Origin: a virus
Direction: 5' to 3' (one strand)
Length of the DNA: 53,359 nucleotides
IMG/VR virus record: IMGVR_UViG_3300047319_001564
Location: 1 to 53,359 of that record
Shown piece after piece: positions 7,754-43,303 of the stretch. How positions within the stretch are numbered: the stretch's first letter is position 1; every line of letters begins with the position of its first letter. Position numbers and translations under genes: made by a program. The notes below the pieces were generated by a model. It searched no databases, was not told the DNA's origin, and saw only the letters and a list, made by a program, of their open reading frames with translations.

Positions 7754-9627
7754 GACAAGGCCTCGAAGAGATCGGCCAGGCGCACGCCACCCTTGCTCGG
7801 GTAGTCAATGACCCCGAGTGAGCGCAGTGACCCGACCGTGTTGTTGAAATGTCCGTTGACGGTGTACCGCGTCGCGGCCGCGAGCTCCTCGCGACTGATG
7901 TCCTGGCCGGCTGCGACGATCGCTTTGAAGATGCGCTGCTGCGGCTCGGTCCGGAGCACCGCGAGTACGCGCTCGATCAATTCGTCGCGGGTCGGTCCCT
8001 CTTCTGGAGCGTAGGCGGCCGCGGCGCCGGCGGTCGTCAGCCGGATGCCTCCGCTCGAGGGATAGTCGACCAGGTCCTTGCTGCGCAACGCGCCGACGGT
8101 GTTGTTGAAGTGACCGTTCACCGTGTAGCGCGCGACGAACGCGACTTGAATCCGCGTCGGTTCTTCCACGCCGGCGGATCGCCACCAGGCGAGCGCGTCG
8201 AGGATGCGCTGTTCGGCCTTGTTGAGATCTCCCGCCACACCCGGCCTGTCAGACACTCTCGGCGCTCGCGTTTCAGCCGGGCGCGTCGCGGCCGAGGATC
8301 GGCTAGTGGGAATGGCCCTCGTGCTGACAGGGTGGCGGCTGATGGCTTGCGCTGGCTGAACTGTGGCCAGCTTGTCGAGGATTTTCCTGATCCCGATGCG
8401 GTCGAACAACTGCTCGAGCATCCCGGCCTGCTCAAGCGAGACGGTCCGAATAGTTTGAAGATATTCAGCGATTGCCTTCTGTACGAGCCGATCGAGTCGG
8501 ACATCTGCTTGCTCGAGCACAAAAGCACTGCTCTTCATGCTCTCCGCGATCGCGCCGGTCCACTTCTCGAGCAGCGCACGATCGGCGTCGGTCAGAATCG
8601 GCTTCGACGAATTTGTCCCGGTCGGGACAATTTGTCCCGGCTTGGACAATTCCTTCTTAAGATCTGCGATCTGTTTCCGGAGCTCGCGCGGGTCGTCGGC
8701 CTTCGCCTTCTCGATCGTCGCGGCCATCTGCCCCTTGAGCGCGTTGAGATCGACGTCGGCGAGGTTCTTCGGTTCGACCGGCTTAACGCCTGGCGCCGGC
8801 GACGCGCCTGAATCGAAGGTCTCAATCGGCAGGACGTGCACACGCTTGAAAATGCCCTCGACGGTCGGCCAGCCAGGCGACCAGAACCACGCATCGCCGG
8901 TCGGGAGCGACGGCAGTGAATCCATCAACGTCCGGCCCTGCTCCTCATCACCGTGCACATCGATCCACGCCTTCATCGCCGCCAGATCCTGCGGCGCGAT
9001 GGTCCGGAGCACGATCAGGACCTGTGCCTGGGTCAGCACATTCTTGTTCAACACGGCCGACCGCTGGGTGACCAGCACGCAGCCGATCCCGCGCTGGCCG
9101 CCGCGGCGTACGATGTCCTCGGCGGCGCCGAGCATCCGCTCCTCGCCCTTCTGCGGTTTCTGCGGTGCGACGGCGTCGGCCTCATCGATCACCAGCATCA
9201 CCGGCGTGCGATAGACCTCCTTCGCTTTCAGCCGGTAGAGGTTCTCGAGGAAGGCCGTCATGAACGTGGCGACTTCGTGCTTGCGAAAGAGCGAGAGATC
9301 GAGCAGCACACTGACGCGTTCCTCGACGACCAGCTTCGCGACGATCTCGCCAGAGATCGATTCGAGCGGCACATCGCCGCGCTCACCGCCCAGAATCACA
9401 ATCGGCAGGCCTGGCGCTTTCCCGTCGGCTGCCGACCGTAATCCCCACTGATCGCCTTTCGGGTCGACGAGCACGACTTGTTGTCCGGCCTTGAAGAGCT
9501 GCTCGACCACGCGGCGCATCGTGTACGACTTGCCGGCGCGCCGTTTCGCGAGGATCGCGATCGTCTGCGTAACGGTCTCGAGCGGCAGTGAGAGATGGTC
9601 GGCGAGTTTCAGCGATCGAGGCGTCAT
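7750..9627 (-). CDS. HerA/FtsK-like DNA-pumping ATPase with two C-terminal winged-helix repeats
   Basis: This 625-residue protein has a Walker A (AKRRAGKSYT, near residue 30), a Walker B (VMLVIDEADAVAPQ, near 150) and a following QRGIGCVLVTQR segment, the pattern of HerA/VirB4-type hexameric ATPases. A charged linker and coiled coil span roughly residues 300-430. The last 140 residues hold two similar units, each with RYTVNGHFNNTVG followed by LVDYPS-GG or VIDYPSKGG, which look like paired winged helices. It probably translocates or remodels DNA during replication or recombination. It overlaps the methyltransferase gene upstream. Confidence 0.8.
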   Translation of the reverse strand: MTPRSLKLADHLSLPLETVTQTIAILAKRRAGKSYTMRRVVEQLFKAGQQVVLVDPKGDQWGLRSAADGKAPGLPIVILGGERGDVPLESISGEIVAKLVVEERVSVLLDLSLFRKHEVATFMTAFLENLYRLKAKEVYRTPVMLVIDEADAVAPQKPQKGEERMLGAAEDIVRRGGQRGIGCVLVTQRSAVLNKNVLTQAQVLIVLRTIAPQDLAAMKAWIDVHGDEEQGRTLMDSLPSLPTGDAWFWSPGWPTVEGIFKRVHVLPIETFDSGASPAPGVKPVEPKNLADVDLNALKGQMAATIEKAKADDPRELRKQIADLKKELSKPGQIVPTGTNSSKPILTDADRALLEKWTGAIAESMKSSAFVLEQADVRLDRLVQKAIAEYLQTIRTVSLEQAGMLEQLFDRIGIRKILDKLATVQPAQAISRHPVSTRAIPTSRSSAATRPAETRAPRVSDRPGVAGDLNKAEQRILDALAWWRSAGVEEPTRIQVAFVARYTVNGHFNNTVGALRSKDLVDYPSSGGIRLTTAGAAAAYAPEEGPTRDELIERVLAVLRTEPQQRIFKAIVAAGQDISREELAAATRYTVNGHFNNTVGSLRSLGVIDYPSKGGVRLADLFEALS

Positions 9628-10871
9628 GCCGCGCGGTCCTCAAGGTAGGAACGGCAGAGGGCGGTCGCGAGACGGCGCGGCACGGCGTTGCCGATCTGTT
9701 TCTTTTGCTCGGTTTTGTTCCCGGCGAACCAATAGGGATCAAGGCTTGTGGCGCGGGCGAGCTCATGTGTCTCGAACATTCGGACGCGAATGTCCAGCAT
9801 CTTGCCGTCCACCACGACCGGTTCGACGAGTTGGAATCGATCTTTTGTGGTGATCGTCGGCAGCGGCTCTGTGACACGGTGCACGTTTGTGGTGCCGTAA
9901 TAGCAGGCGATGAACGCTTCAACGAGCAGGTGATGATTGCCGGATGTCGCGATCGTCGTGAGTGGATGATCGACCGTTCTCGGCGATGTATGATTCCGCA
10001 TCGTCACGACGAACGGTTCGATGATGCGTACGGCGCCGTCAGTCGTGATCGTCGGCAACGGACACTTCACGGATCGCGCGACACCACCGCCAGCTTGCGC
10101 CAGTACGAACGGCTCGCCCCAGAACCGACGAATACCCTCTGCGATCCGCGCCAGCGTTTTGGCTGTCAGTGGCTTCGGCCGGTTGTAGATGCTTCGCCCA
10201 TTCAGCGACCAGTCGATGATCTCGCTCGCCGGCCGCCACGGCAACACGCGGCCGAACAACGAATCGGGGCGTTCGCCATGGCTCGGCGTGGGCCAGTCGA
10301 TGTGTTTTCGGCCCTTCCGCGCTTGGACGAACAGTCGTTCGCGGGTAGTGGCATCCCCGTAGTCAGCAGCAATGAGTGTGCGGTATTCGACGCGATACCC
10401 GTGTGCCTCAATCGCGTGCAGCCACGCCTTGAACGTCTCGCCGCGCCGTGACTTAATGGGGCGCCCGGTTGCGCCGAGCGGTCCCCATTTCATGAACCGT
10501 GGAACGTTCTCGACGATCAGTCCATCCACCTGCAGCGCATCCAGCCACCGCGGGACATGCCATGCTGATGCCCGTCCTTGCTCGCTCAACGGTTTTCCGC
10601 CCTTGGCTGGCGAGTGATCGATGCACTCTGGCGAGGCTACGAGAAGATCAAGGCGGCCTCCAGGGATGACTATCCTCGGGTTCACACTGTCGAGCGTTTC
10701 GCAGAGATGCCTGGCGCGCGGATGGTTCAGGCGGAATGTTTCGATCGCCTTGTCCCAGTGATTTATACCGATCACATCGAGGCTGAGGCCCAGATCGACG
10801 CAGGCATATTCGAGCCCTGACGTCGTGCCACCGGCGCCGCAGAAGAGATCCGCTGCGAGGATCTTCTTCAC
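9624..10871 (-). CDS. DNA (cytosine-5) methyltransferase
   Basis: The start is set at the GTG at 10871 (VKKILAADLFCGAGG), which overlaps the upstream stop as GTGA; upstream ATGs lie inside the previous gene. Motif I (DLFCGAGGTTSG), motif VI (VENVPRF), RERLFVQARKG and the C-terminal GNAVP motif are present. The catalytic cysteine lies in SPECIDHS, where most family members have PPCQ or PCQ; a SPEC form is compatible with activity but unusual. The protein transfers methyl from SAM to cytosine, probably to protect phage DNA from host restriction. The target sequence is unknown. Confidence 0.9.
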   Translation of the reverse strand: MKKILAADLFCGAGGTTSGLEYACVDLGLSLDVIGINHWDKAIETFRLNHPRARHLCETLDSVNPRIVIPGGRLDLLVASPECIDHSPAKGGKPLSEQGRASAWHVPRWLDALQVDGLIVENVPRFMKWGPLGATGRPIKSRRGETFKAWLHAIEAHGYRVEYRTLIAADYGDATTRERLFVQARKGRKHIDWPTPSHGERPDSLFGRVLPWRPASEIIDWSLNGRSIYNRPKPLTAKTLARIAEGIRRFWGEPFVLAQAGGGVARSVKCPLPTITTDGAVRIIEPFVVTMRNHTSPRTVDHPLTTIATSGNHHLLVEAFIACYYGTTNVHRVTEPLPTITTKDRFQLVEPVVVDGKMLDIRVRMFETHELARATSLDPYWFAGNKTEQKKQIGNAVPRRLATALCRSYLEDRAA

Positions 10872-11560
10872 GCGGGCACCTTTTTCTGTTCGTCGGCGAG
10901 TCGTAACATCTCGCGCGCCTGATCGCGGATATAGCCAGGCACGAGGCCGCCAGCGAGGCACGAGGCGCCGGCTTCGTCGGTCTTGAATTCAAGCACGCAG
11001 CTGTCAGGCTCAATGTGAAGATCGCGATTGAACGCGGCACTCTCGATGTCCGTCGGTCCGGCCGGCTCTTTTCGCTGTAGCTCGTTCGGCCACGTCCAAA
11101 TTTCGTAGCCTGGAATCACGCAAGCCTCATAGAGCAGCAGCACGCAATCCTTCGGGTACGGTTGCTTGTGGCCCACGAACGTGATCCGACCGTTCAGGAG
11201 CAGCACCCGGGCTTTGGTGTGGACCCAGTCTCGCCACCAGTTCGCACCGACGCCGGCTGGCACAAGCATCGCGGTATGCGCGCCCTGGCGGGATTCCTCG
11301 AACGCCTTCTGCGCCCAGGGACGCAGATCGCTGAAGGGTGGATTCAGCCAGTTCCAGCCGTCGAACACCCACGATTGCACGAGCGCATTCGACCGCTCGG
11401 AATAGAACTGCTTCGCGATCGTGTTTGATTGCGACGCCGCGAGATCGACGATGAACGATTCGATGCCGAGCCGGCGCTTAACCGCCTCGAGGAACACCTT
11501 CGGCGTCCGCACGGCCTGCTTTGACGTGCCTGGCTGCTGGCGCGGCATCGACTTGGCCAT
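10868..11560 (-). CDS. Phage DNA N6-adenine methyltransferase (Dam-like)
   Basis: This 230-residue protein shows RTPKVFLEAVKRRLG, FIVDLAAS and the catalytic NPPF motif in WLNPPFSDLRPW, as in the compact phage N6-adenine methyltransferases. A weakly conserved Cys-containing C-terminal region follows. It is followed immediately by the cytosine methyltransferase (GTGA overlap), making a paired methylation unit. A second, longer enzyme of the same kind is at 14061-15104. Confidence 0.85.
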   Translation of the reverse strand: MAKSMPRQQPGTSKQAVRTPKVFLEAVKRRLGIESFIVDLAASQSNTIAKQFYSERSNALVQSWVFDGWNWLNPPFSDLRPWAQKAFEESRQGAHTAMLVPAGVGANWWRDWVHTKARVLLLNGRITFVGHKQPYPKDCVLLLYEACVIPGYEIWTWPNELQRKEPAGPTDIESAAFNRDLHIEPDSCVLEFKTDEAGASCLAGGLVPGYIRDQAREMLRLADEQKKVPA

Positions 11561-13603: not shown

Positions 13604-14064
13604 CGATCGAATGGCGCTCCGACGCCAGCATGTGAACAGATCCAGCACACGCCGTTATCGATAAATTCCGGTCGATGCAAGCACGCCTGGCGTATTACCG
13701 TTGACGAAATAGCTGACTCGCCATACCACCACCGGTGCAAGCGGTCCCGATACTCCTCGATAGTCAGCGTCTCAGCGCCGCGTTCGCTCGATACGTCCCA
13801 CCAACCGATCAATCCGTCATCGAGCCGACGAAGTAGCCACACGGTGCATCTAGGCAGCGCGGAGAGATCACGCATCACCCACAACTGCGCCTTATCGAGC
13901 GGCTCGCGTTCATATTTGAACTCACGAAACAAAAAGCGATGGGTGTCCATGTCATGGCTGATCGCGTCGACGTCCGTGAACGTACTGCCTCGCTTACCAA
14001 CACCACGCTCAATCTCATCGAAATAATTCGAGATCGAGTCCCGAAACTTTCTGAGCTGCGTCAT
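13600..14064 (-). CDS. Possible PD-(D/E)xK-type nuclease
   Basis: This 154-residue protein contains TDVDAISHD, then LFREFKYEREPLDKAQLWVM. The order Asp ... Glu-x-Lys followed by a Gln-containing helix is the signature of PD-(D/E)xK nucleases and of VRR-like resolvases. The C-terminal part has a CWIC pair. It lies between the methyltransferase and replication genes, with ATGA/GTGA overlaps on both sides. The nuclease call is an inference from the motif alone. Confidence 0.5.
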   Translation of the reverse strand: MTQLRKFRDSISNYFDEIERGVGKRGSTFTDVDAISHDMDTHRFLFREFKYEREPLDKAQLWVMRDLSALPRCTVWLLRRLDDGLIGWWDVSSERGAETLTIEEYRDRLHRWWYGESAISSTVIRQACLHRPEFIDNGVCWICSHAGVGAPFDR

Positions 14065-15104
14065 TCAGCCCTCATCAACACGACGCCTAACTCATTGAAA
14101 CTTTTAGCGAATCGGTACGGGTTTTCTCCGAGATAGAGCACGGCTTGACCTTGCAATGGTGCGCCTGACGGATTGCCGGAGGGATCGAGAAAGCGAACGC
14201 GACCTTTCAACAAGCACACGGCCGAAGAGGATTCCAGCATCCGCTGAAACCAACTCGTCTCTGTGGCATTGTTCACCAGCACGCAGGCGCGTTTAATTTC
14301 CTTCTGTTCGAATTTGGATGACACCGCATCGGCAAATTGAGAAACGAGTGGCTGCGCATAGGGTGGATTCATCCACACATTGCCTCGCCAGGTCTTTTTC
14401 AGGCCGTCATCGGCGACGGTGTAAAACGTCTTCGCCTGAACGATCTTGTTGGCGACTAGCGAGGACGCTGGATCGACGTCGATCGGTCCCATTGCCGATC
14501 GTGCCGCCTCGATGAACTCAGGTGGCGTATACCATTCGTTGTTACCGCTGTTGTTGGCGACGTGCGGACGATTCTCGACTGCGCGCTGAATATCGGCCTT
14601 CGTTGGAGGACGGTTTTCGAGAAGCGCCTGGTTGATCGCATCTTCAACGACGTCCTCGCCAGCATCACGGACGTCGCGCCACTCAGACAGGCGCTGGCGG
14701 GAAATTCCCAGTTCTTCAACTGTTGGAACTTCGTCCGGACTCCGGTCGAAGTCAGTCCGCTTGCCTTGAGTGCTCGGCTTCTTATCGATTTCGTCGGCCA
14801 TCCGCATTTCTGCGCGGACGATCATGCGAAGGCAGTCGGCGTGTGTTTCGTTGGCAGCGCGCGTCAACTTTGCGTAGTGCAGGGCAGATTCAGCAATCGC
14901 CTTAGCTTCGAGTACTTCCGCTGAACTTCGAGCTTGAGACAATCGCTGACAGGCACGATCGATCAGCGCCGGCAGATTCGTGGATGCAGATTGTTCCTGT
15001 TCGCTCGTCAACTGTTCATCCCGTTCCATTTGATAGATGCCGCTTGATCTGTCGTGAATAGGTGTCAGGGGCTCGGCCTCTCGCGACGCACGGGTCTTAT
15101 CCAC
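14061..15104 (-). CDS. N6-adenine DNA methyltransferase with ParB/HTH-like N-terminal region
   Basis: This 347-residue protein has two parts. Residues ~30-175 are helical (RACQRLSQARSSAEVLEAKA, then VEELGISRQRLSEWRDV), reading like a helix-turn-helix region of the type fused to phage methyltransferases. Residues ~185-347 carry NEWYTPPEFIEAAR, IDVDPASS and the catalytic WMNPPY, then WFQRMLESSSAVCLLKGR, as in phage Dam-like enzymes. It probably methylates adenine in phage DNA. The first ATG is kept because GGTGG precedes it; an ATG at 15029 is an alternative. Confidence 0.85.
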   Translation of the reverse strand: MDKTRASREAEPLTPIHDRSSGIYQMERDEQLTSEQEQSASTNLPALIDRACQRLSQARSSAEVLEAKAIAESALHYAKLTRAANETHADCLRMIVRAEMRMADEIDKKPSTQGKRTDFDRSPDEVPTVEELGISRQRLSEWRDVRDAGEDVVEDAINQALLENRPPTKADIQRAVENRPHVANNSGNNEWYTPPEFIEAARSAMGPIDVDPASSLVANKIVQAKTFYTVADDGLKKTWRGNVWMNPPYAQPLVSQFADAVSSKFEQKEIKRACVLVNNATETSWFQRMLESSSAVCLLKGRVRFLDPSGNPSGAPLQGQAVLYLGENPYRFAKSFNELGVVLMRAE

Positions 15105-24175: not shown

Positions 24176-24642
24176 TGGATTATCGCTATTGGGACTCGGT
24201 GACGTTTCTCGGATGGCTCGCCGAGGAGGCGGATAAAGCCGCTGAATGCCAACTGGTCCTCGAAGCCGCGGAAAGTGGGACAATCCAGATTGTCACGTCA
24301 GCGCTGACCATCGCGGAAGTCCTCTGGTTGAAAGGACACAAAAAAGTCCACGCCAGCCACGCGAAGAAGATCGAATCGTTTTTCAGACACAGTTGGATTA
24401 TCGTGCGCGAGGTCGATCGATTCGTCGCTGAGGACGCACGCGAACTGGTATGGAATAAGAACATCAAACCGAAGGATGCGATTCATCTAGCGACGGCACT
24501 CCGCCAAGATGTTCCGTTCGATCAGTTCGACACATTTGACGGGGACCTAATCAAGCTGTCCGGCACCCTGGGAACTCCACCGCTGACGATCGGTCGGCCA
24601 AACCTTCCTGCGAAATTGCCCTTCGAGCAAGACGAGGAATGA
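24175..24642 (+). CDS. PIN-domain ribonuclease (VapC-like)
   Basis: This 155-residue protein has the PIN pattern: an early Asp in YWDSVTFLGWL, a Glu in SALTIAEVLWL, then KPKDAIHLATAL and a final FDTFDGDLIKL, giving the acidic residues that bind metal. PIN domains cut RNA, and in toxin-antitoxin pairs arrest growth. It lies directly before the integrase gene (ATGA overlap), within the lysogeny operon, so it is probably expressed in the lysogen. Confidence 0.75.
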   Translation: MDYRYWDSVTFLGWLAEEADKAAECQLVLEAAESGTIQIVTSALTIAEVLWLKGHKKVHASHAKKIESFFRHSWIIVREVDRFVAEDARELVWNKNIKPKDAIHLATALRQDVPFDQFDTFDGDLIKLSGTLGTPPLTIGRPNLPAKLPFEQDEE

Positions 24643-25715
24643 GCCGCGGCCCACGGGAACGGATAGCGACTGGCGTCTATCGCGATCGCTATGGCATCTC
24701 CGTCAAGGTCAAAAACCGCGGCGAACCGCGCGAAGAACGCTTTCCGCGCGATACGCCGATCGAGGAGCTCGAGCGACACCAGGCCCGCATGGAATCGGAG
24801 CTGCTCGAGGACCAGGCCGAGCGCGCACAGACCGGCACAGCCGAGCCGACGCGCGGCACCTTCGCGGGCGATCTCCCACGCTACCTGAAACAGATCGCCG
24901 GGCGCTCGAGCTTCAAATCCGACCGGTCACATCTGCGCGCCTGGCTGCCACATGTCGGCACGACACGACGCAGCGAGATCAAGCCCTCGCACATCCGCGA
25001 GGCCTTCGCCGCCTGGCAATCGAAGGGACTCAGCGCGCGCACGATTCGTCATCGTCGTCGTGTGCTCCGCGAGCTCTATCAGACGCTCGACGGTGTCCAC
25101 GCGAGGCCACCACTGAAAGGCGTGAAGGCGCCGCGGCCGCCGGATCCGCATCCGATCGCCGTGCCGATCGCCATGATTCAGAAGGTCGCGAAGAGTCTGC
25201 GCTCAGGGCTTGTCGGGAAGAAACGCCACGGCCCGAAGAAAACGCTCGCGCTGATTCACTATAAAGAATCGCCGCAGACGTATGCGCGGTTCCTGGTGCG
25301 GGCGACCACGGGGCAGCGGCCTGCGCAAATCATGTGGGCGACGCCGGCGGATGTCGACTTGAAACGGCGCATCTGGTTTGTACGCGCGGCGAAGGGCGGG
25401 TATTCGGCGGCACTGCCACTCAATGGCGAGATGGTGCGTGCCTGGCGCGTCTTCATCAAGGCGAAGGCGTGGGGCTCGTTCGATGCGCGGAGCTTCGCGA
25501 AGACGCTGAGGCGCCACGGCTGGCCCGCCGGCATCAGACCGTATGCCCTTCGCTCGACGTTCGCGATCGATCACCTGTTGAAGGGTACGAGCCTCGGCGA
25601 TCTCCAGGGACTGCTTGGCCACCGGCAGATCGAGACCACACGCCGACACTACGCCTCCGTCCAGGTGGCGCTGCTCAAAAAGCAGGTCGGCAAACGGTTG
25701 CTGAAACTGGCCTAA
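24639..25715 (+). CDS. int: Tyrosine-family integrase
   Basis: This 358-residue protein has an N-terminal core-binding region (~65-145; SDRSHLRAWLPHVG, REAFAAWQSKGLSARTIRHR). Its C-terminal catalytic domain shows Arg in TTGQRPAQI, Lys in AAKGGYSAAL, YALRSTFAIDHL, LLGHRQIETTRRHYASV with the GH His and the nucleophile Tyr. Box II has Tyr where His is most common. It catalyses integration at the adjacent attP. Its proximity to the tRNA fragment at 25866 supports the role. Confidence 0.92.
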   Translation: MSRGPRERIATGVYRDRYGISVKVKNRGEPREERFPRDTPIEELERHQARMESELLEDQAERAQTGTAEPTRGTFAGDLPRYLKQIAGRSSFKSDRSHLRAWLPHVGTTRRSEIKPSHIREAFAAWQSKGLSARTIRHRRRVLRELYQTLDGVHARPPLKGVKAPRPPDPHPIAVPIAMIQKVAKSLRSGLVGKKRHGPKKTLALIHYKESPQTYARFLVRATTGQRPAQIMWATPADVDLKRRIWFVRAAKGGYSAALPLNGEMVRAWRVFIKAKAWGSFDARSFAKTLRRHGWPAGIRPYALRSTFAIDHLLKGTSLGDLQGLLGHRQIETTRRHYASVQVALLKKQVGKRLLKLA

Positions 25716-31863: not shown

Positions 31864-32499
31864 TCAGTTTTTGAAGTGCAGCACTTGAGCCGCCTGTGGT
31901 TTCACGTAGTACGTCGAGTTCGCCGCGTCGAGCGTGATCTTCAGCGTGATGACGTTATCGCCGGTGAAATTCGTTGGCGTGCTGACACCGCAGATCGCCA
32001 TATCGCGCAGGAAGGGGTTGTTGATCGCATGCACATTCCCCACGGTGTCGGTGATGAAGTCATAGTCGCGATCGGCGATCCAGACGTCGCTGCCCACTCG
32101 CCGACAGAAGAACCGAAAAATCACCCGATACTCGGTCGCGTCGTTATTGAAGTTCGAGACCGTACCAGACGCGCCGGCCCCCTGTCGCAATTGGACCTGT
32201 GCGCCCGCGCCGACATTCACCTTGAACGTCACGAGACCGGTCGTGCCCTTATTGTTTTTCGCCAGACAGGCAATCTCGCACTTGACCACATCGCCATCGC
32301 TCCAGGCGCCGCCAGGGACGGTGAAGTGGCAGACGTCGGTTTCCGTGACCGTGTTGTTGACGTCCGCCTTCGTGGCGGTATAGCTCGCGAGTTTGGACCC
32401 GCCGAAGAGGAATAAGAGGTTGTCCCGCAGATGGGTGTTGAGCATCGATGCGGTGACGAACTCGCCAGGAATCCACGTGCGGGGACTGGTCCACGCCAT
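31864..32499 (-). CDS. Tail fibre or tail-tip protein
   Basis: This 211-residue protein opens with TSPRTWIPGEFVTASMLNTH and LRDNLLFLFGG, the start typical of many phage fibre and tail-tip proteins. The rest is beta-rich (VCHFTVPGGAWSDGDVVKC, VNVGAGAQVQLRQGAGASG) and ends in AAQVLHFKN. The start overlaps the stop of the methyltransferase gene (TGATG). Confidence 0.7.
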   Translation of the reverse strand: MAWTSPRTWIPGEFVTASMLNTHLRDNLLFLFGGSKLASYTATKADVNNTVTETDVCHFTVPGGAWSDGDVVKCEIACLAKNNKGTTGLVTFKVNVGAGAQVQLRQGAGASGTVSNFNNDATEYRVIFRFFCRRVGSDVWIADRDYDFITDTVGNVHAINNPFLRDMAICGVSTPTNFTGDNVITLKITLDAANSTYYVKPQAAQVLHFKN

Positions 32500-33620
32500 C
32501 AGCGTTCTCCATCGAGTCGCGCAAAGAGCGGCTCGTCATACGAGTACACGAACACCTGGCGCGCGTGATCATGGATGCGGGCGCGCAGGGTCGGGATTTC
32601 CTCAAAACGACGCAGTGAGACCACCGCCGTGTCCACCGTCGGCAGATTGGCCGATCGGAGATCGGCGACCACGATCGCGGGATGTTTGGCGGCTTTAATT
32701 GGGTCGATTTCGATCCCGCTGACCGGGCGCAGGAAGGTCGAGGCAATGCGCTGCATCAACAACCCATTGCCGGCGCCGAGGTCAAGGACGGGGCCTTGCG
32801 GCGGTGAGCTCCGCAACGCCTGCAACACCATCATGTGCGCCGCATCCTGCGCCGCCACGGTTGGGAATCCGTTCTCCGTGGACACCGGCATGCCAGCCTC
32901 GGAATAGGGGAAGGCGAGGCCTCGCGCTCCCTCGGCCGGATAGGTGCGCCCGCGGCGCTGCACGATTCGCCTCTCGGCGGTATAGCCGGTGCGGGTGACG
33001 ACTTTCAGGACCGGATACCGGATTTCAGCGGCGCCGTGGAGCGCCGACCATTCGACGGGCCACTGCAACACCTCATCAATCACATCCGCCGCCTGAGGAT
33101 CCTTTGCTCGGAGGAGCGCGCGATGGGCGACGCCAAGCGCGCGCGTCGCCTCGCACGTAAACGAGCAGGGCAGGTGCATCACCCAGCGCATATCCAGCCA
33201 GCGCCCGAGGATGTTGCATTCGAGCGGTCCCGTGGTCTCGATGCCGCCGCGTGACATCGCCCAGGTGGTGTCGCCCGTGCCAGCGCCCCAGGTGGCGGCG
33301 AACGCCAGTCGACAACACGCCGGAAAGCCCAATAGGGCGCCGACTCTCTCGTCGTCGCGCGCCTGGTACGCCGTCGAGAGTGCCTTGGCCCCTGGCCCGA
33401 CCGCGAACCGATCCGCATCGACCTCGAGATAGGCGTTTCCCCACGCCTCGACACGTGCGCGGCCGAATACCAGGGCAGCCGGCCGCAGGCCCTCCGTGAC
33501 GGTCTGTAGTTCGAGGTTATGCCATGCGGCAGCTGCGCGCATCAGGCGAGGTTCCCACGCGCCGCGCGCGCGCGAGGAGGCCCACATCCGGCGACTGAAT
33601 TCGCGGCTACGCGTCGCCAT
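32499..33620 (-). CDS. GFPACC-domain / SAM-dependent methyltransferase fusion
   Basis: I start at the ATG at 33620 (MATRSREFSRRMWASSRAR), which overlaps the radical SAM stop by 14 bases; a longer frame lies inside that gene. Of 373 residues, the N-terminal ~170 contain LLGFPACCRLAFAATWG, LECNILGRWLDMRW and HLPCSFTCEATRALGVAHRA, an ordered Cys pattern that resembles DUF483-like proteins. The C-terminal ~150 hold a class I methyltransferase (PVLDLGAGNGLLMQRIA, then GIEIDPIKAAK and IVVADLRSANLP). The fusion follows the radical SAM enzyme in one unit and may act on the same substrate. Confidence 0.7.
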   Translation of the reverse strand: MATRSREFSRRMWASSRARGAWEPRLMRAAAAWHNLELQTVTEGLRPAALVFGRARVEAWGNAYLEVDADRFAVGPGAKALSTAYQARDDERVGALLGFPACCRLAFAATWGAGTGDTTWAMSRGGIETTGPLECNILGRWLDMRWVMHLPCSFTCEATRALGVAHRALLRAKDPQAADVIDEVLQWPVEWSALHGAAEIRYPVLKVVTRTGYTAERRIVQRRGRTYPAEGARGLAFPYSEAGMPVSTENGFPTVAAQDAAHMMVLQALRSSPPQGPVLDLGAGNGLLMQRIASTFLRPVSGIEIDPIKAAKHPAIVVADLRSANLPTVDTAVVSLRRFEEIPTLRARIHDHARQVFVYSYDEPLFARLDGER

Positions 33621-34914
33621 GTGGAATATCCCCATGCATGACTGTCGTCCCCGCGTCGCCGTGCAGGTCGATCCCGGCGTCGCTGTGTTGATAGCCATCG
33701 GGCGCGTCCCAATGGTCGATATGGTCGCCCGTGGTGGTGCCAGGGATTGGACGCCCGTGCAGCACGGCGACGGCCTGCTCAATCGAGAGGTTGCGGCCCT
33801 CGCCCCAGGCCTCAAGCATCGTGACTTCGATGCGTTCGAGCTCGGGCGATCGCGTAATCGGGGTCAGGCCGCGCGCGAAGAGTTCCTGTTCGGTGCGCTC
33901 GAGGAGTCGCATCCAGACGCCGCAGTGCTCCGTCCGATTGCGCCAGTCGCCATCGACCGCCGTGCCCGGGCACTGTCCTTTGCAGGCAATGAAAAACCGG
34001 CAGCCCTGGCAGCCGTTCTCGGATTGCGGCGTGTCATAAAGCACCAGCTGCCGCTCGAAGCCCTCGACGTCGGCCTTGTTCCAATCCACGCCATCTTTGT
34101 TTGTGCGCCCGCAGTTGATGTTCTCGCCGACGCCGTTCACCCCGCGTACCGCGCGCGTGGTGTAGGGGTCGCAGGCATTCCAGATGCAGGTCGTGCCCTG
34201 GCTGGTATCGCGCGCGAGGAGCAGCCGTTCCAGGTCGGAGAAGACATCGAATTGCAGCGCTGGAAATCCCTGCTGAAAGGCATGGAGCTCCAGAAAGGCC
34301 GCGACGTTCTCGTCTTCGGTGAGCGCCCACCGGCGGCGCACCTCGGGCGATTCGACTTCTAAGAGGTGGAGCCGCATGTGGCGTACGCCCAGGGTATAGA
34401 GCTCCGCGATCCACTGTTTCAATCGGTCGAGGCGTGCGCCGACGGCGTTGCCGCGATGCAGGGTGACGATCAAACTCGGCGGCTGTCGGCGTTCACACAA
34501 GCGTCGAATCGCCCATTCGCTCTGCGCTGTCAGGGCCCGTGTTTTATCAAGCGTGCCCGCCTCGCGCACATCGTTCAGCTCGTCCGGTCCGTCCATTGAG
34601 ATCCCGACGCTGACGCCATAGCGCGCGAACAGCGCCAGGTGTTCTTCGGTGATAAGCGAGCCGTTTGTTTGAATGGCGTTGCCGCCGAAGCGTTCGAGGC
34701 CCCAGCGGAACATCTCTTCGAGATCCGCGAACGGCATCAAGAGCGGTTCACCGCCGAACAGGGAGAAGCGATAGTTCTCCTGCGCCAATGCGCGCTTCAT
34801 GGCCGCCATGTCGTACCCGGGCGAGAAGTTCCCCGCCTCGCGCATGGGGTCCTCGTAACAGTACGCACACTGCAGATTGCATTTCACACCGACCGGATTC
34901 AGTTCAATGCTCAA
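33607..34914 (-). CDS. Radical SAM/SPASM peptide-modifying enzyme with HxD tail
   Basis: This 435-residue protein has the radical SAM cluster motif CNLQCAYC (C12, C16, C19), FSLFGGEPLLMP and ISMDGPDEL. It also has a full SPASM domain: GENINC, CQGCRFFIACKGQC and EHCGVW fit C-x2-C-x5-C-x3-C plus the flanking cysteines. Such enzymes modify peptides or proteins such as sulfatases and RiPP precursors. The last 40 residues (starting TTGDHIDHWD and ending MHGDIPHGDA) carry six His-x-Asp units like those of the upstream protein. The start is TTG, overlapping the stop of the HxD hub gene (TTGA). Confidence 0.9.
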   Translation of the reverse strand: MSIELNPVGVKCNLQCAYCYEDPMREAGNFSPGYDMAAMKRALAQENYRFSLFGGEPLLMPFADLEEMFRWGLERFGGNAIQTNGSLITEEHLALFARYGVSVGISMDGPDELNDVREAGTLDKTRALTAQSEWAIRRLCERRQPPSLIVTLHRGNAVGARLDRLKQWIAELYTLGVRHMRLHLLEVESPEVRRRWALTEDENVAAFLELHAFQQGFPALQFDVFSDLERLLLARDTSQGTTCIWNACDPYTTRAVRGVNGVGENINCGRTNKDGVDWNKADVEGFERQLVLYDTPQSENGCQGCRFFIACKGQCPGTAVDGDWRNRTEHCGVWMRLLERTEQELFARGLTPITRSPELERIEVTMLEAWGEGRNLSIEQAVAVLHGRPIPGTTTGDHIDHWDAPDGYQHSDAGIDLHGDAGTTVMHGDIPHGDA

Positions 34915-37070
34915 TTGGCGTCTCCGTGTGCGGTGTCACTGTGCGTGACATCGCCGTGGGTATCGGTGTGGGAGACGTCCGAGTGCGCGACGTCGCCGTG
35001 GGCGCTGTCGGCGTGCGCCACGTCGCTATGGCTCGTCCCGTCGTTATGCGCAATGTCGACGTGCGCGACGTCTGCGTGGGAGACGTCGCTGTGGGGCGTA
35101 TCGGTATGTCCGTCCTCATGGGCCTCGTCGATATGCGCGCTGTCGCTATGCCCGTCGCCGTGGAGTTGATCGGTGTGGGTGTCGCTGTGGAGATCGGCAT
35201 GCCCGTCGCCGTGGTCCTGCACTAAGGGGACGTCCAAATGCGCATCGATATGGTCGGTGTGGACATCGGTGTGGGTGTCTGAATGATCGTCGATGTGCGC
35301 CGAATCCGAATGCGAATCTCCGTGCGGCGAGTCCTGAAAGACATCGTCCGAATGCGCATCGCCATGCGTGACATCAGTGTGCGAGACGTCGCTGTGGGCC
35401 GTGTCCTGATGGACCGAATCGCCGTGCACGGCCCCGTCGCCGTGCGCCTGGTCCTGGTGGGCATTATCGGTGTGGCTGTCACTATGGCTGACATCGCTGT
35501 GGGTGTCGGTGTGTGCCACATCGCCGTGCGCGACGTCGGTATGGCCGATGATCAACCCGAACCCGAGCCGCGTACTGATGTCGAGTTCGCTCCGACCGAC
35601 GACCTCGAGCTCCCAGAACTGACGACTATCGATCGGGACCGACAACGTGAACTCTGTTTCGATATGGGTGCGGTAAATCGTTTCGCGGATGTGATCGATG
35701 AAAAAGGATTTCGAAATGCCGGTGACCACATCCACGATGCCGATCCGGTCGCTGATTTCGCGGCCCAAGCTTCGCGTCAGTTCGGCGGTATTGGTTACGC
35801 CGACCATGCGGCGAAACCCCTCCACCTGTGTGGTCGGTTCGCTGCGGGTGAAAATAATGTACTGGGCCAGTTCAATGCCGAAATTCGCGTTCGACTGATA
35901 TGGCAGATCGATGTTCAGCGGGTTGAGGCCGAAGCGGTCGATGCTGTCCTGGTCGATCTGCGTGGCCGGAATCGGGCCGTAGTCCAGCAACGCCTGCCCG
36001 CGCTGTTGCAGGACCGTCAGCCAGCCGGCCGTCACGCCGCTGAGGGTCACCGAAAATTGCGTGGCGTTGCCTGAGAGCCCCACCGTGACGGTCAGATTGG
36101 CCGTGAGGTCGACGCCGCTCCCATCCTCGGCGGCATTCGCCACGTAATCGGTCCCAGCCACCAGCGAGACCAGCGACACGGCGCCGACGCGCACATCCGG
36201 GTTGTCCGCATCGGTCCACGGGCCGAGGATGTCGACGGATTGACCAATCGCCAGTTCTAACGGTTGGTTCAGGCTGAAGAGCACCGCGGTCGTGTTTGGA
36301 CTCGGGAGCCGCGGGTGCACCGTGGTCTGCGTCGAGTTCGCGATATTCTCGGCCGAATGCGGGGCGGTGAACCCATGGGTGTTCGTGAACGTGTCCGTGT
36401 TCGTGGTGAGCTTCGTGCGACGGGTGCGGGCTTCATAGACCACCGTGCCGTCCCCGCGTTCCCACACGCGATCCAGGCCGCTCAGGGCCAAGCGATACAG
36501 TTCATCGCGGGCGCGCGTCTGTTCGTCGCGGATCCGGTCGAGGACGTAGGGGTAGACGTCAGCGCTGAGATCTTTTTCGACGGCACGTGGCTGCGAGAAG
36601 TCCGGCAGGCCATCGATGATGGTCTGAAAGACGTCGTCCCCCGTCGCATCGAGCAGGATCGGCAGGTCGTTGAGCCGCGTGCGACCCGCAATCCCCATCC
36701 ACCCGATACACTCGCACCGTACGCCTTGCGCGCGATGAATGCCAGGTTCCGGGGCGATGTAGTCCAGGTATCCGGTAAATCGTGGATACGAGGTCGCGCC
36801 GACGGTTACGCGGGCGCGCACACCGATCAAGAGTTGAAACCCTGCACGACAGTTCGCGTGATCGGGCGAATAGTACCCGACCAGGTGCGCGCTATTGGTC
36901 GAGCTGTTATTCAGGATAAATGACAACGTGCCGGAATCGGCAATACAGTCGGCGACGCCACTGCCCGGAAGGCCCCGTTCCCATTGCAGACCCTCGGCGG
37001 TCCGCCAGTCGTTCACCTGGGTCCAGCCGTTGCCTCGCCCGGAGAATTCCATTTCCAAGAGAATCGCCAC
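34911..37070 (-). CDS. Tail hub/baseplate-like protein with C-terminal His-x-Asp array
   Basis: The gene starts with GTG (37070) after AAGGGAG, just past the tape measure stop. Of 719 residues, the first ~510 look like a tail-hub protein (LSFILNNSSTNSAHLVGYY, TSYPRFTGYLDYIAPEPG, DIRE-type helices and IDSRQFWELEVVGRS), matching its position after the tape measure gene. From about residue 510 to the end the sequence is an array of HxDxx or HxDx units, about 43 His-x-Asp in total, e.g. HSDVSHADVAHVDIAHND. The array could bind many metal ions or be the substrate of the radical SAM enzyme that follows. Confidence 0.8.
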   Translation of the reverse strand: MAILLEMEFSGRGNGWTQVNDWRTAEGLQWERGLPGSGVADCIADSGTLSFILNNSSTNSAHLVGYYSPDHANCRAGFQLLIGVRARVTVGATSYPRFTGYLDYIAPEPGIHRAQGVRCECIGWMGIAGRTRLNDLPILLDATGDDVFQTIIDGLPDFSQPRAVEKDLSADVYPYVLDRIRDEQTRARDELYRLALSGLDRVWERGDGTVVYEARTRRTKLTTNTDTFTNTHGFTAPHSAENIANSTQTTVHPRLPSPNTTAVLFSLNQPLELAIGQSVDILGPWTDADNPDVRVGAVSLVSLVAGTDYVANAAEDGSGVDLTANLTVTVGLSGNATQFSVTLSGVTAGWLTVLQQRGQALLDYGPIPATQIDQDSIDRFGLNPLNIDLPYQSNANFGIELAQYIIFTRSEPTTQVEGFRRMVGVTNTAELTRSLGREISDRIGIVDVVTGISKSFFIDHIRETIYRTHIETEFTLSVPIDSRQFWELEVVGRSELDISTRLGFGLIIGHTDVAHGDVAHTDTHSDVSHSDSHTDNAHQDQAHGDGAVHGDSVHQDTAHSDVSHTDVTHGDAHSDDVFQDSPHGDSHSDSAHIDDHSDTHTDVHTDHIDAHLDVPLVQDHGDGHADLHSDTHTDQLHGDGHSDSAHIDEAHEDGHTDTPHSDVSHADVAHVDIAHNDGTSHSDVAHADSAHGDVAHSDVSHTDTHGDVTHSDTAHGDAN
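34914..35543 (-). repeat. His-x-Asp coding array (about 43 units, mostly 12- or 15-bp period)
   Basis: The DNA encoding the hub protein's C-terminal ~210 residues consists of degenerate 12- and 15-base units, with codons varied enough that the DNA itself is not a simple perfect repeat. His and Asp are kept in phase while the other positions are Ser, Thr, Gly, Val or Ala. Conservation of the protein pattern over the DNA pattern suggests selection on the protein. Confidence 0.9.
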
Positions 37071-42051: not shown

Positions 42052-42623
42052 GAGGCCTCCCGCACATGCGCCGGCAGATCGTCGCCCACTTCCGCAATCA
42101 CATCCTGCCGCCAGATGATGTCCGAGCGCAGCCAGCCGACGCTCTCGAGAAAGGCACAGTCGCCACCGATGAAGCCGCCCCAGATCCCGAGCTTCTGCGG
42201 GACGTTCGGGATGAAGAACATCGGCGTGCCGACATTGCCGAAGATGACGGCCGGTTCCCGCCAGAGGACCCGACCATCGGGATAGCGCATGCGAAATACC
42301 ACCGGCCGATCGGGCGTGCGCGTGACCGCGTCGGCCATCGCCGCCCGGGCGCCTGGGACCTGGCGATCATCGTCGTCGAGGAAGGCGAGATGCGTGCCGC
42401 GGGCCAGGGGCATCGCGGCGTTGCGCTCCGTGCTGCCCCAATCGTGGCCCCGCGGACAGTGCAGAAACCGAACCCCGCGTTCCACGTCCGATGGCCGGAT
42501 ATAGGGATTCAGCTGCGCGAGCTCGCCGACCACGAGAATCTCATCGCCGGGCCAGAGCTCGATCGAGTCGAGCGCCTCGAGCAGGGACGGCCGCCCGAGT
42601 GACGGCAGAATGATGCTGATCAT
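42048..42623 (-). CDS. GT2-type glycosyltransferase (short)
   Basis: This 191-residue protein begins ISIILPSLGRPSLLEALDSI and holds a DxD-like motif (HLAFLDDDDRQVPGARAAM), the nucleotide-sugar site of GT-A family 2 transferases. The C-terminal part is short. It is joined by overlaps to its neighbours. Its acceptor is unknown. Confidence 0.8.
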   Translation of the reverse strand: MISIILPSLGRPSLLEALDSIELWPGDEILVVGELAQLNPYIRPSDVERGVRFLHCPRGHDWGSTERNAAMPLARGTHLAFLDDDDRQVPGARAAMADAVTRTPDRPVVFRMRYPDGRVLWREPAVIFGNVGTPMFFIPNVPQKLGIWGGFIGGDCAFLESVGWLRSDIIWRQDVIAEVGDDLPAHVREAS

Positions 42624-43303
42624 GCCGGCACCGCCGTCAGCGCCCGCACCCGTGAGACCGCCTGGTTGACGACGGCATCATGGGTCATCCAATACAACGA
42701 GTTGGTACGGGCGGGGTTGTCCTGGTCGGCTTCACGAAAGGTGCGGTCGGGCCGCCAGCCGCGCCAGTCGTGATCGATCGTCACCGTCGGGACCAGCACG
42801 GCGCGATCGAACGCCGCCATGACGTCGCGCAGGAACACGTCGCCCCAATAGAGCCGGGGATCATGGACATAGCCCATGGCATCGACCGCGACGCGCGCAA
42901 TCGTCGAAAACGGAAAATGCGTCGGGTTGTGCGTCGAGACGCCGAGATTGAACACCCCATCCGGATAGCGATTCGCCTCGGCGAGGAGGAGCGCCGGCCA
43001 GCCAGGCGTGCGAAAGACCATGTCGTCGTTGCCCGTCATTAGGACATCGCCGGTCGCGATGGCGAGGAGTTCGCGATAAAACCGTGGGAGGCTGCTATAG
43101 CCGGCATGGCGTGGACCGACGAGCACCTTCCGGCCGCTCGCGCGGAGCAGTTCGGCCGACGCGGGATCGTCGTCATCGACCCGAAAGACCAGCTCGCTCT
43201 CCACAGAATCGCCGGCGGTGGCGTCATAGGACGCGAGGAGCGTCCGCAGGTCGTCGAGGCGGCCGCGCGTCGGCACAAGGACGGAGATCTTGTGAAACGT
43301 CAT
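42620..43303 (-). CDS. GT2-type glycosyltransferase
   Basis: This 227-residue protein has ISVLVPTRGRLDDLRTLLAS, LVFRVDDDDPASAELLRASG and ATGDVLMTGNDDMVFRTPGW, typical of family 2 GT-A enzymes with DxD-like motifs. A WGDVFLRDVMAAF segment follows. It probably adds a hexose. It overlaps the next genes on both sides. Confidence 0.8.
   Translation of the reverse strand: MTFHKISVLVPTRGRLDDLRTLLASYDATAGDSVESELVFRVDDDDPASAELLRASGRKVLVGPRHAGYSSLPRFYRELLAIATGDVLMTGNDDMVFRTPGWPALLLAEANRYPDGVFNLGVSTHNPTHFPFSTIARVAVDAMGYVHDPRLYWGDVFLRDVMAAFDRAVLVPTVTIDHDWRGWRPDRTFREADQDNPARTNSLYWMTHDAVVNQAVSRVRALTAVPA

Follow-up and report, generated by a model that had tools for sequence, protein, structure and literature searches.

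Enzymatically made bonds between a ring carbon of an aromatic residue (position i) and the C-beta of the residue two positions further on (i+2) have been reviewed for Tyr-Asp, His-Ala, His-Arg, Phe-Asn, Phe-Ser and Trp-Asn/Asp pairs (PMC11002830). Closer in gene content to the system considered here is a module of the Thermus phage Cumys, in which a radical S-adenosylmethionine (SAM) enzyme and a DUF483 gene were reported in 2024; the third gene was called unknown, DNA modification was suggested as the function, and a repeat array was not mentioned (PMC11437467). Here, we describe the analysis of a viral record of 53,359 bp (IMGVR_UViG_3300047319_001564; the whole of this stretch is referred to as the window), in which three tightly packed minus-strand genes come right after the tape-measure gene. 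They encode a tail-module protein ending in an array of His-x-Asp (HxD) units, a radical SAM/SPASM enzyme, and a DUF483-like domain fused to a methyltransferase. The three genes probably constitute a maturation cassette whose enzyme would cross-link the aromatic-x-Asp/Asn units of the tail protein encoded by the preceding gene, likely as cyclophanes. We know of no virion protein that is matured by a radical SAM enzyme.

The array and the neighboring radical SAM enzyme

The array of the window comprises exactly 43 HxD units at residues 510–717, in agreement with an earlier note on this DNA that had put their number at about 43. The units are mostly 4–5 residues apart, all 43 His of the array belong to them, and residues 1–505 contain none. 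Shuffled versions of the array contained 9.7 units on average and never more than 18 in 2,000 trials. The codons are mixed (His, CAC 27 and CAT 16; Asp, GAC 28 and GAT 15), 31 distinct 9-mers occur among the 43 units, and middle as well as spacer residues differ. Because codons, middle residues, and spacers vary in this way, the pattern is maintained by selection at the protein level and not as a simple DNA repeat.

The enzyme gene is linked to the array gene by a TTGA overlap, which suggests translational coupling of the two. In the enzyme, which Pfam Radical_SAM matches at 4.6e-13, the cluster motif C12-x3-C16-x2-C19 is invariant across 20 homologues, and the same is true of the seven SPASM cysteines (C248-x14-G263-x4-C268, C302-x2-C305-x5-C311-x3-C315, and C331) and of an additional, eighth cysteine, C243. 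Its own C-terminus carries six HxD units, so that the overlap, both cysteine sets and this tail are all as the earlier note had read them. Tails of the HGDHTD/HGDHWD type are present on 28 of 33 distinct viral enzyme homologues among the matches listed; they may bind the substrate or be modified themselves.

The association between arrays and enzyme was tested in both directions. First, an enzyme-blind scan of viral contigs for a DNA pattern encoding four HxD units returned 40 loci with heterogeneous arrays. The enzyme lies within the examined locus in 33 of them, on the same strand and usually directly downstream of the array gene or overlapping it, and elsewhere on the contig in three more; these 36 of 40 are not independent events, as many contigs are related, and the same applies to the co-occurrence counts given below. 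The remaining four arrays are a 10-kb fragment ending inside the array and three collagen-like proteins with 12–13 HxD units (L035, L064, and L086) on contigs that lack the enzyme. L092, a relative of these three, resides on a 104-kb contig that does carry it. In the same scan, the enzyme was absent from all 17 simple tandem HxD arrays and from all 63 further loci that lack an array. An apparent exception, L066 (48 HxD units on a viral contig of 205 kb that lacks the enzyme), was set aside as a nearly pure HTDTA tandem in a Thr-rich protein; the 2,312-residue product (L066, 2–6937) combines this long tandem with Cys-rich modules.

Second, 79 viral loci were collected by way of the enzyme, 70 of them with 3 kb or more of sequence upstream. 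An array was detected in 75 of the 79 and a DUF483 gene in 74, and 69 of the 70 loci with sufficient upstream sequence carry an array. Applied to 59 control loci around weakly related radical SAM genes, the same detector returned a single mechanical match of 82 residues. The refuting condition set in the earlier note, an absence of such co-occurrence, was thus clearly not borne out from either side. Since array and enzyme co-occur and the motif is conserved, the array is very likely a substrate of the radical SAM enzyme and, hence, modified.

An array could also be a functionless, expanded low-complexity repeat that stands beside the enzyme through shared ancestry of one phage lineage. Such arrays expand easily, and the simple tandem arrays found without the enzyme are examples. 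However, His and Asp are fixed here against changing codons and middle residues, and the link persists in enzymes that share as little as about 30% identity. The arrays also occupy the C-terminal end, or a position close to it, in several unrelated tail proteins; in L060, a lambda J-like central fibre domain belongs to a protein with an internal array. A functionless repeat is largely refuted by the codon and co-occurrence results, and we regard it as the least probable of the explanations considered.

Phage array proteins range from about 200 to 1400 residues. In many loci, recurrent C-terminal tags follow the array, namely DQPxxVGP (e.g., DQPVFVGP), HGDxN (e.g., HGDAN) and HGDSEY, which possibly serve as recognition or assembly signals. 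Runs of consecutive array genes with mixed F-x-N, H-x-N, and H-x-D units are found upstream of one enzyme in L241 (231–5932), L246 (1–5932), and their relatives; the last array gene of such runs ends in HSDQPVFVGP or similar, and some of these genes begin with collagen-like GPTG repeats.

The motif rule and the predicted chemistry

Motif statistics were obtained from 44 non-redundant arrays (10,172 residues). The residue at +2 of an array His is Asp in 90% and Asn in 7% of cases. HxS, HxT, and HxH occur at 0.03, 0.01, and 0.03 times expectation, respectively. D-x-H is not enriched, which makes the motif order directional. Against shuffles that kept the HxD positions fixed, YxD (144 observed vs 18.7 in shuffles), HxN (123 vs 12.8), FxN (68 vs 14.8), and FxD (42 vs 9.2) are in excess, as are, by less, WxD and WxN. 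The earlier note's His-x-Asp motif is therefore better described as aromatic-x-Asp/Asn. Individual loci switch residues altogether: the array of L004 consists of F-x-N units, yet the enzymes of L004 and its sister, the H-x-D locus L006, share 59% identity (support 100/99); L156 is rich in W-x-N and Y-x-D, and L154 in H-x-N; and L145, sister to the H-x-D locus L137, has H-x-K units, which form the C-terminal array of a Fulvivirga partner protein (L145, 4832–7972; PHLKHIKAPHIKHIKAPHIKHVKLPHVKVF). Across these arrays, a conserved rule emerges in which an aromatic residue at i is followed at fixed spacing by Asp, Asn, or Lys at i+2. Substrates of three-residue cyclophane formation obey the same rule.

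This rule bears on a rival proposal, in which the array would bind metal at the tail tip, much as the HxH iron needle of T4 gp37 does, and the neighboring enzyme would have another target. His and Asp are good ligands, and tail fibres with HxH iron sites have been described (PMC11705849). Yet HxH is depleted, the order is directional, the enzyme accompanies arrays almost without exception, and Phe, Tyr, Trp, or Lys stand in for the ligands in homologous arrays. Because residues switch to Phe, Trp, and Lys while the i/i+2 spacing holds, which a metal site is not expected to tolerate, the pattern fits three-residue cyclophane formation, i.e., triceptide chemistry, better than metal binding, and we consider a metal-binding tip improbable. 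The earlier note had left open modification or metal binding; comparative evidence speaks for the former and against the latter.

As to the product, a three-residue cyclophane is the outcome that we moderately favor. The SPASM radical SAM enzyme would act on each aromatic-x-Asp/Asn unit (His-x-Asp in the window): a 5′-deoxyadenosyl radical would abstract a hydrogen from the C-beta of Asp or Asn at i+2, and the resulting carbon radical would bond to the ring of His, Phe, Tyr, or Trp at i, with a mass change of −2.016 Da for each unit. In the window array, as many as about 43 units could be cross-linked in this manner, which would give a tail or fibre protein a stapled C-terminal rod that is rigid and resists proteases and heat; this structural role is the part of the proposal that we put forward least firmly.

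The enzyme might instead modify the array by epimerization, desaturation, or hydroxylation at the Asp C-beta, or by joining a His nitrogen to the Asp C-beta, a linkage of the kind seen in dynobactin, which has a C–N cross-link besides its C–C one (PMC11002830). In favor of such reactions are the chemical diversity of SPASM enzymes and the matches of DynA-type profiles to all 20 aligned members. Phe-x-Asn and Trp-x-Asn arrays, however, are incapable of forming an imidazole N–C bond, and a reaction confined to Asp would need no aromatic residue at i. Such other chemistries are accordingly a minority possibility, though a more serious one than metal binding.

Cyclophane and side-chain cross-linking maturases (AmcB, DynA, YhhB, GrrM/OscB, XyeB, and PapB) are among the nearest curated families, which speaks for the cross-linking proposal, as do the published triceptide pairs and the precursor-shaped peptides beside bacterial homologues. 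Several observations weigh against it. All curated cyclophane families score far below their cut-offs (AmcB 61 vs 425, YhhB 55.5 vs 445, and GrrM/OscB 43 vs 310 bits). The curated family that scores best with the window enzyme is the anaerobic sulfatase maturase, and sulfatase-maturating enzymes are also the closest among solved structures. The phage substrates are large structural proteins in which no common leader is recognizable. Finally, no clear array accompanies the enzyme at the cyanobacterial locus L221 or on L231, a small contig.

Distribution and gene context

Among cultured phages, Thermus phages Cumys and phiMa carry an array gene of 53/54 units immediately upstream of the enzyme gene, the 54-unit protein being Cumys_13. 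As the gene order matches, the third gene of the published Cumys module would be the one for this array protein. Thermus phage phiLo encodes three array proteins with about 72, 101, and 19 HxD units on the opposite strand, about 4 kb from the enzyme. The earlier note had taken an HxD system on a phage tail to be undescribed, which holds for the array, absent from PMC11437467, but not for the enzyme/DUF483 module, already noted there in 2024.

The suggestion made for Cumys and phiMa, that the radical SAM/DUF483 module modifies DNA, draws on cyanobacterial homologues located among deazapurine DNA-modification genes and on DUF483-methyltransferase fusions (PMC11437467), and the window carries separate DNA methylases. 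Against this stand the identity of the module's unnamed third gene, Cumys_13, the association with arrays in 69 of 70 viral loci, and the finding of a close enzyme homologue in only 1 of 292 cyanobacterial genomes sampled. DNA modification is, thus, very unlikely, if marginally less so than a functionless repeat. In L221 (7826–11550), the one cyanobacterial locus inspected, the enzyme/DUF483 pair is flanked by coiled-coil-like proteins with THDQ repeats, which take the place of an HxD array.

Bacterial chromosomes carry the enzyme as well, some copies perhaps as prophage genes. Acidobacteria have it with small HxD proteins (L137–L140), and in Myxococcota, Frankia, SAR324, and Bacteroidota the proteins beside it are large and have a short array at the C-terminal end. 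In Bradyrhizobium, Lysobacterales, and Tahibacter, it is found near peptides of 89–102 residues (stop to stop) that end in HIDIL, HVDV, or HIDV. Those at L146 (4648–4914), L147 (4651–4917), L148 (3038–3316), and L150 (4532–4837) resemble precursors of ribosomally synthesized and post-translationally modified peptides (RiPPs), bear one such end each, and have other radical SAM genes nearby. Enzyme and array are also present in an archaeal genome (Diapherotrites, L152). By sequence comparison, therefore, the system is not confined to virions, and the enzyme appears to form a large, new family of its own, common to phages, bacteria, and at least one archaeal genome. We give even odds to a broader reading, in which a phage radical SAM enzyme and its DUF483 partner would install tens to about 100 cross-links on a virion protein, so that a widespread class of tailed phages would have tail or fibre tips made of poly-cyclophane ladders.

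The CC motif and the methyltransferase domain that the earlier note had read in the third protein were confirmed, the latter as class I by profile, and a fold search ranked class I methyltransferases among the best matches; the same search gave nothing informative for the DUF483-like domain. The DUF483 profile (PF04467) reaches 18.1–24.6 bits in six members including the window protein, the Pfam gathering cut-off being 25 bits, and the Cumys homologue is annotated as DUF483 in GenBank. No Hxs family appeared among the profile matches of the third gene. The DUF483-like domain accompanies the enzyme almost everywhere, whereas the methyltransferase domain does not. The former, with its conserved CC...C...C pattern, is probably an obligate partner acting in substrate presentation, redox, or perhaps metal binding; the latter may catalyze an optional later or accessory step.

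For the array protein itself, profile searches matched no Pfam or PHROG family, and an AlphaFold model built from an alignment of eight sequences was poor (predicted local distance difference test, pLDDT, 40). The "tail hub" label given by the earlier note is thus positional. The coordinates of all features are listed in Table 1.

Table 1. Features of the three-gene cassette in the window
Feature	Position	Strand	Remark
Tail-module protein, 719 aa, GTG start, C-terminal HxD array	34911..37070	-	directly downstream of tape-measure gene
Non-array part, residues 1-509	35544..37070	-	conserved in L001, L002, L096, L029, L107, L018; "hub" by position only
HxD array, residues 510-717	34920..35543	-	43 HxD units and one FQD
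TTGA overlap, array-gene stop/enzyme TTG start	34911..34914	-	4 nt
Radical SAM/SPASM enzyme, 435 aa, TTG start	33607..34914	-	CxxxCxxC and complete seven-Cys SPASM set
Enzyme C-terminal tail, residues 398-434, six HxD units	33613..33723	-	similar tails on 28 of 33 distinct viral homologues listed
DUF483-like domain fused to class I SAM methyltransferase, 373 aa	32499..33620	-	ATG at 33620 overlaps enzyme gene end
DUF483-like domain, residues 1-242, G[YF]PxCC ... HLPCSFxC ... SALHGIAEIxTP	32895..33620	-	beside or fused to enzyme in nearly all loci
Methyltransferase domain, about residues 250-373	32502..32873	-	absent from many homologues

Upstream of the cassette, the minus-strand gene order is terminase, portal, head protease, major capsid protein, connector, tail genes, and tape measure. 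A glycosyltransferase-like gene (42620–43303, minus strand; PHROG 14945, 3.4e-14) lies amid the head–tail genes. Since the window also encodes a C5-cytosine DNA methylase (9624–10961, minus strand), a Dam-type adenine methylase (14061–15104, minus strand), and an integrase (24639–25715, plus strand), the phage is probably temperate, with protected DNA.

Comparison with known systems

Among open PMC papers, a search on His-x-Asp with radical SAM found nothing; a full-text search combining cyclophane, radical SAM, and phage tail returned as its only match a study of the N4 phage polymerase. If the proposed cross-linking is correct, phages make chemically stapled tail parts, which possibly explains robustness to heat or proteases, and RiPP-type chemistry is used for virus architecture. 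With their dozens of similar sites, the arrays would serve as natural substrates in work on iterative radical enzymes, and a testable function is offered both for DUF483 and for the module noted in cultured Thermus phages.

With the triceptide or three-residue cyclophane-forming enzymes XncB, OscB, MscB, YxdB, HaaB, and YhhB, the present system shares a radical SAM/SPASM enzyme beside a (here putative) aromatic-x-X substrate. It differs in falling below all curated cut-offs, in its phage tail substrates with 10–100 units, and in the DUF483 partner, and the cyclophane is predicted here. The short precursor peptide with a leader is lacking among phage substrates; short peptides were seen only in the bacterial loci L146–L150. 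As the scores are far under every curated cut-off and the phage substrates are large structural proteins, the system seems to work like a triceptide system yet belongs to no named family.

The rSAM module of Thermus phages Cumys and phiMa has a homologous enzyme (about 51% identity), a DUF483 gene, and an HxD array as its third gene (PMC11437467); unlike the present analysis, that study left the array undescribed and proposed DNA modification. The His-Xaa-Ser (Hxs) and FxsB systems likewise combine short aromatic-x-X repeats with radical SAM maturases. In contrast to them, the third residue is Asp or Asn here and Ser is avoided. Membership in Hxs was rejected on the depletion of HxS and the weak HxsB profile, which matched 10 of 20 enzyme members (best 1.6e-11).

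Repeated i/i+2 His motifs on tail fibres are known from the HxH iron-binding fibres of T4 gp37 and Alteromonas phage R22Y, whereas HxH is nearly absent from the arrays described here, which have Asp or Asn as partner, aromatic and Lys variants, and a dedicated enzyme. Finally, TvgA/TvgB poly-cyclopropylglycine formation (PMC9062424) differs in its TVGG motif, in its chemistry, and in modifying a peptide encoded with transport genes rather than a virion protein; it resembles the proposed cassette in that one radical SAM enzyme works repeatedly along a repeat substrate.

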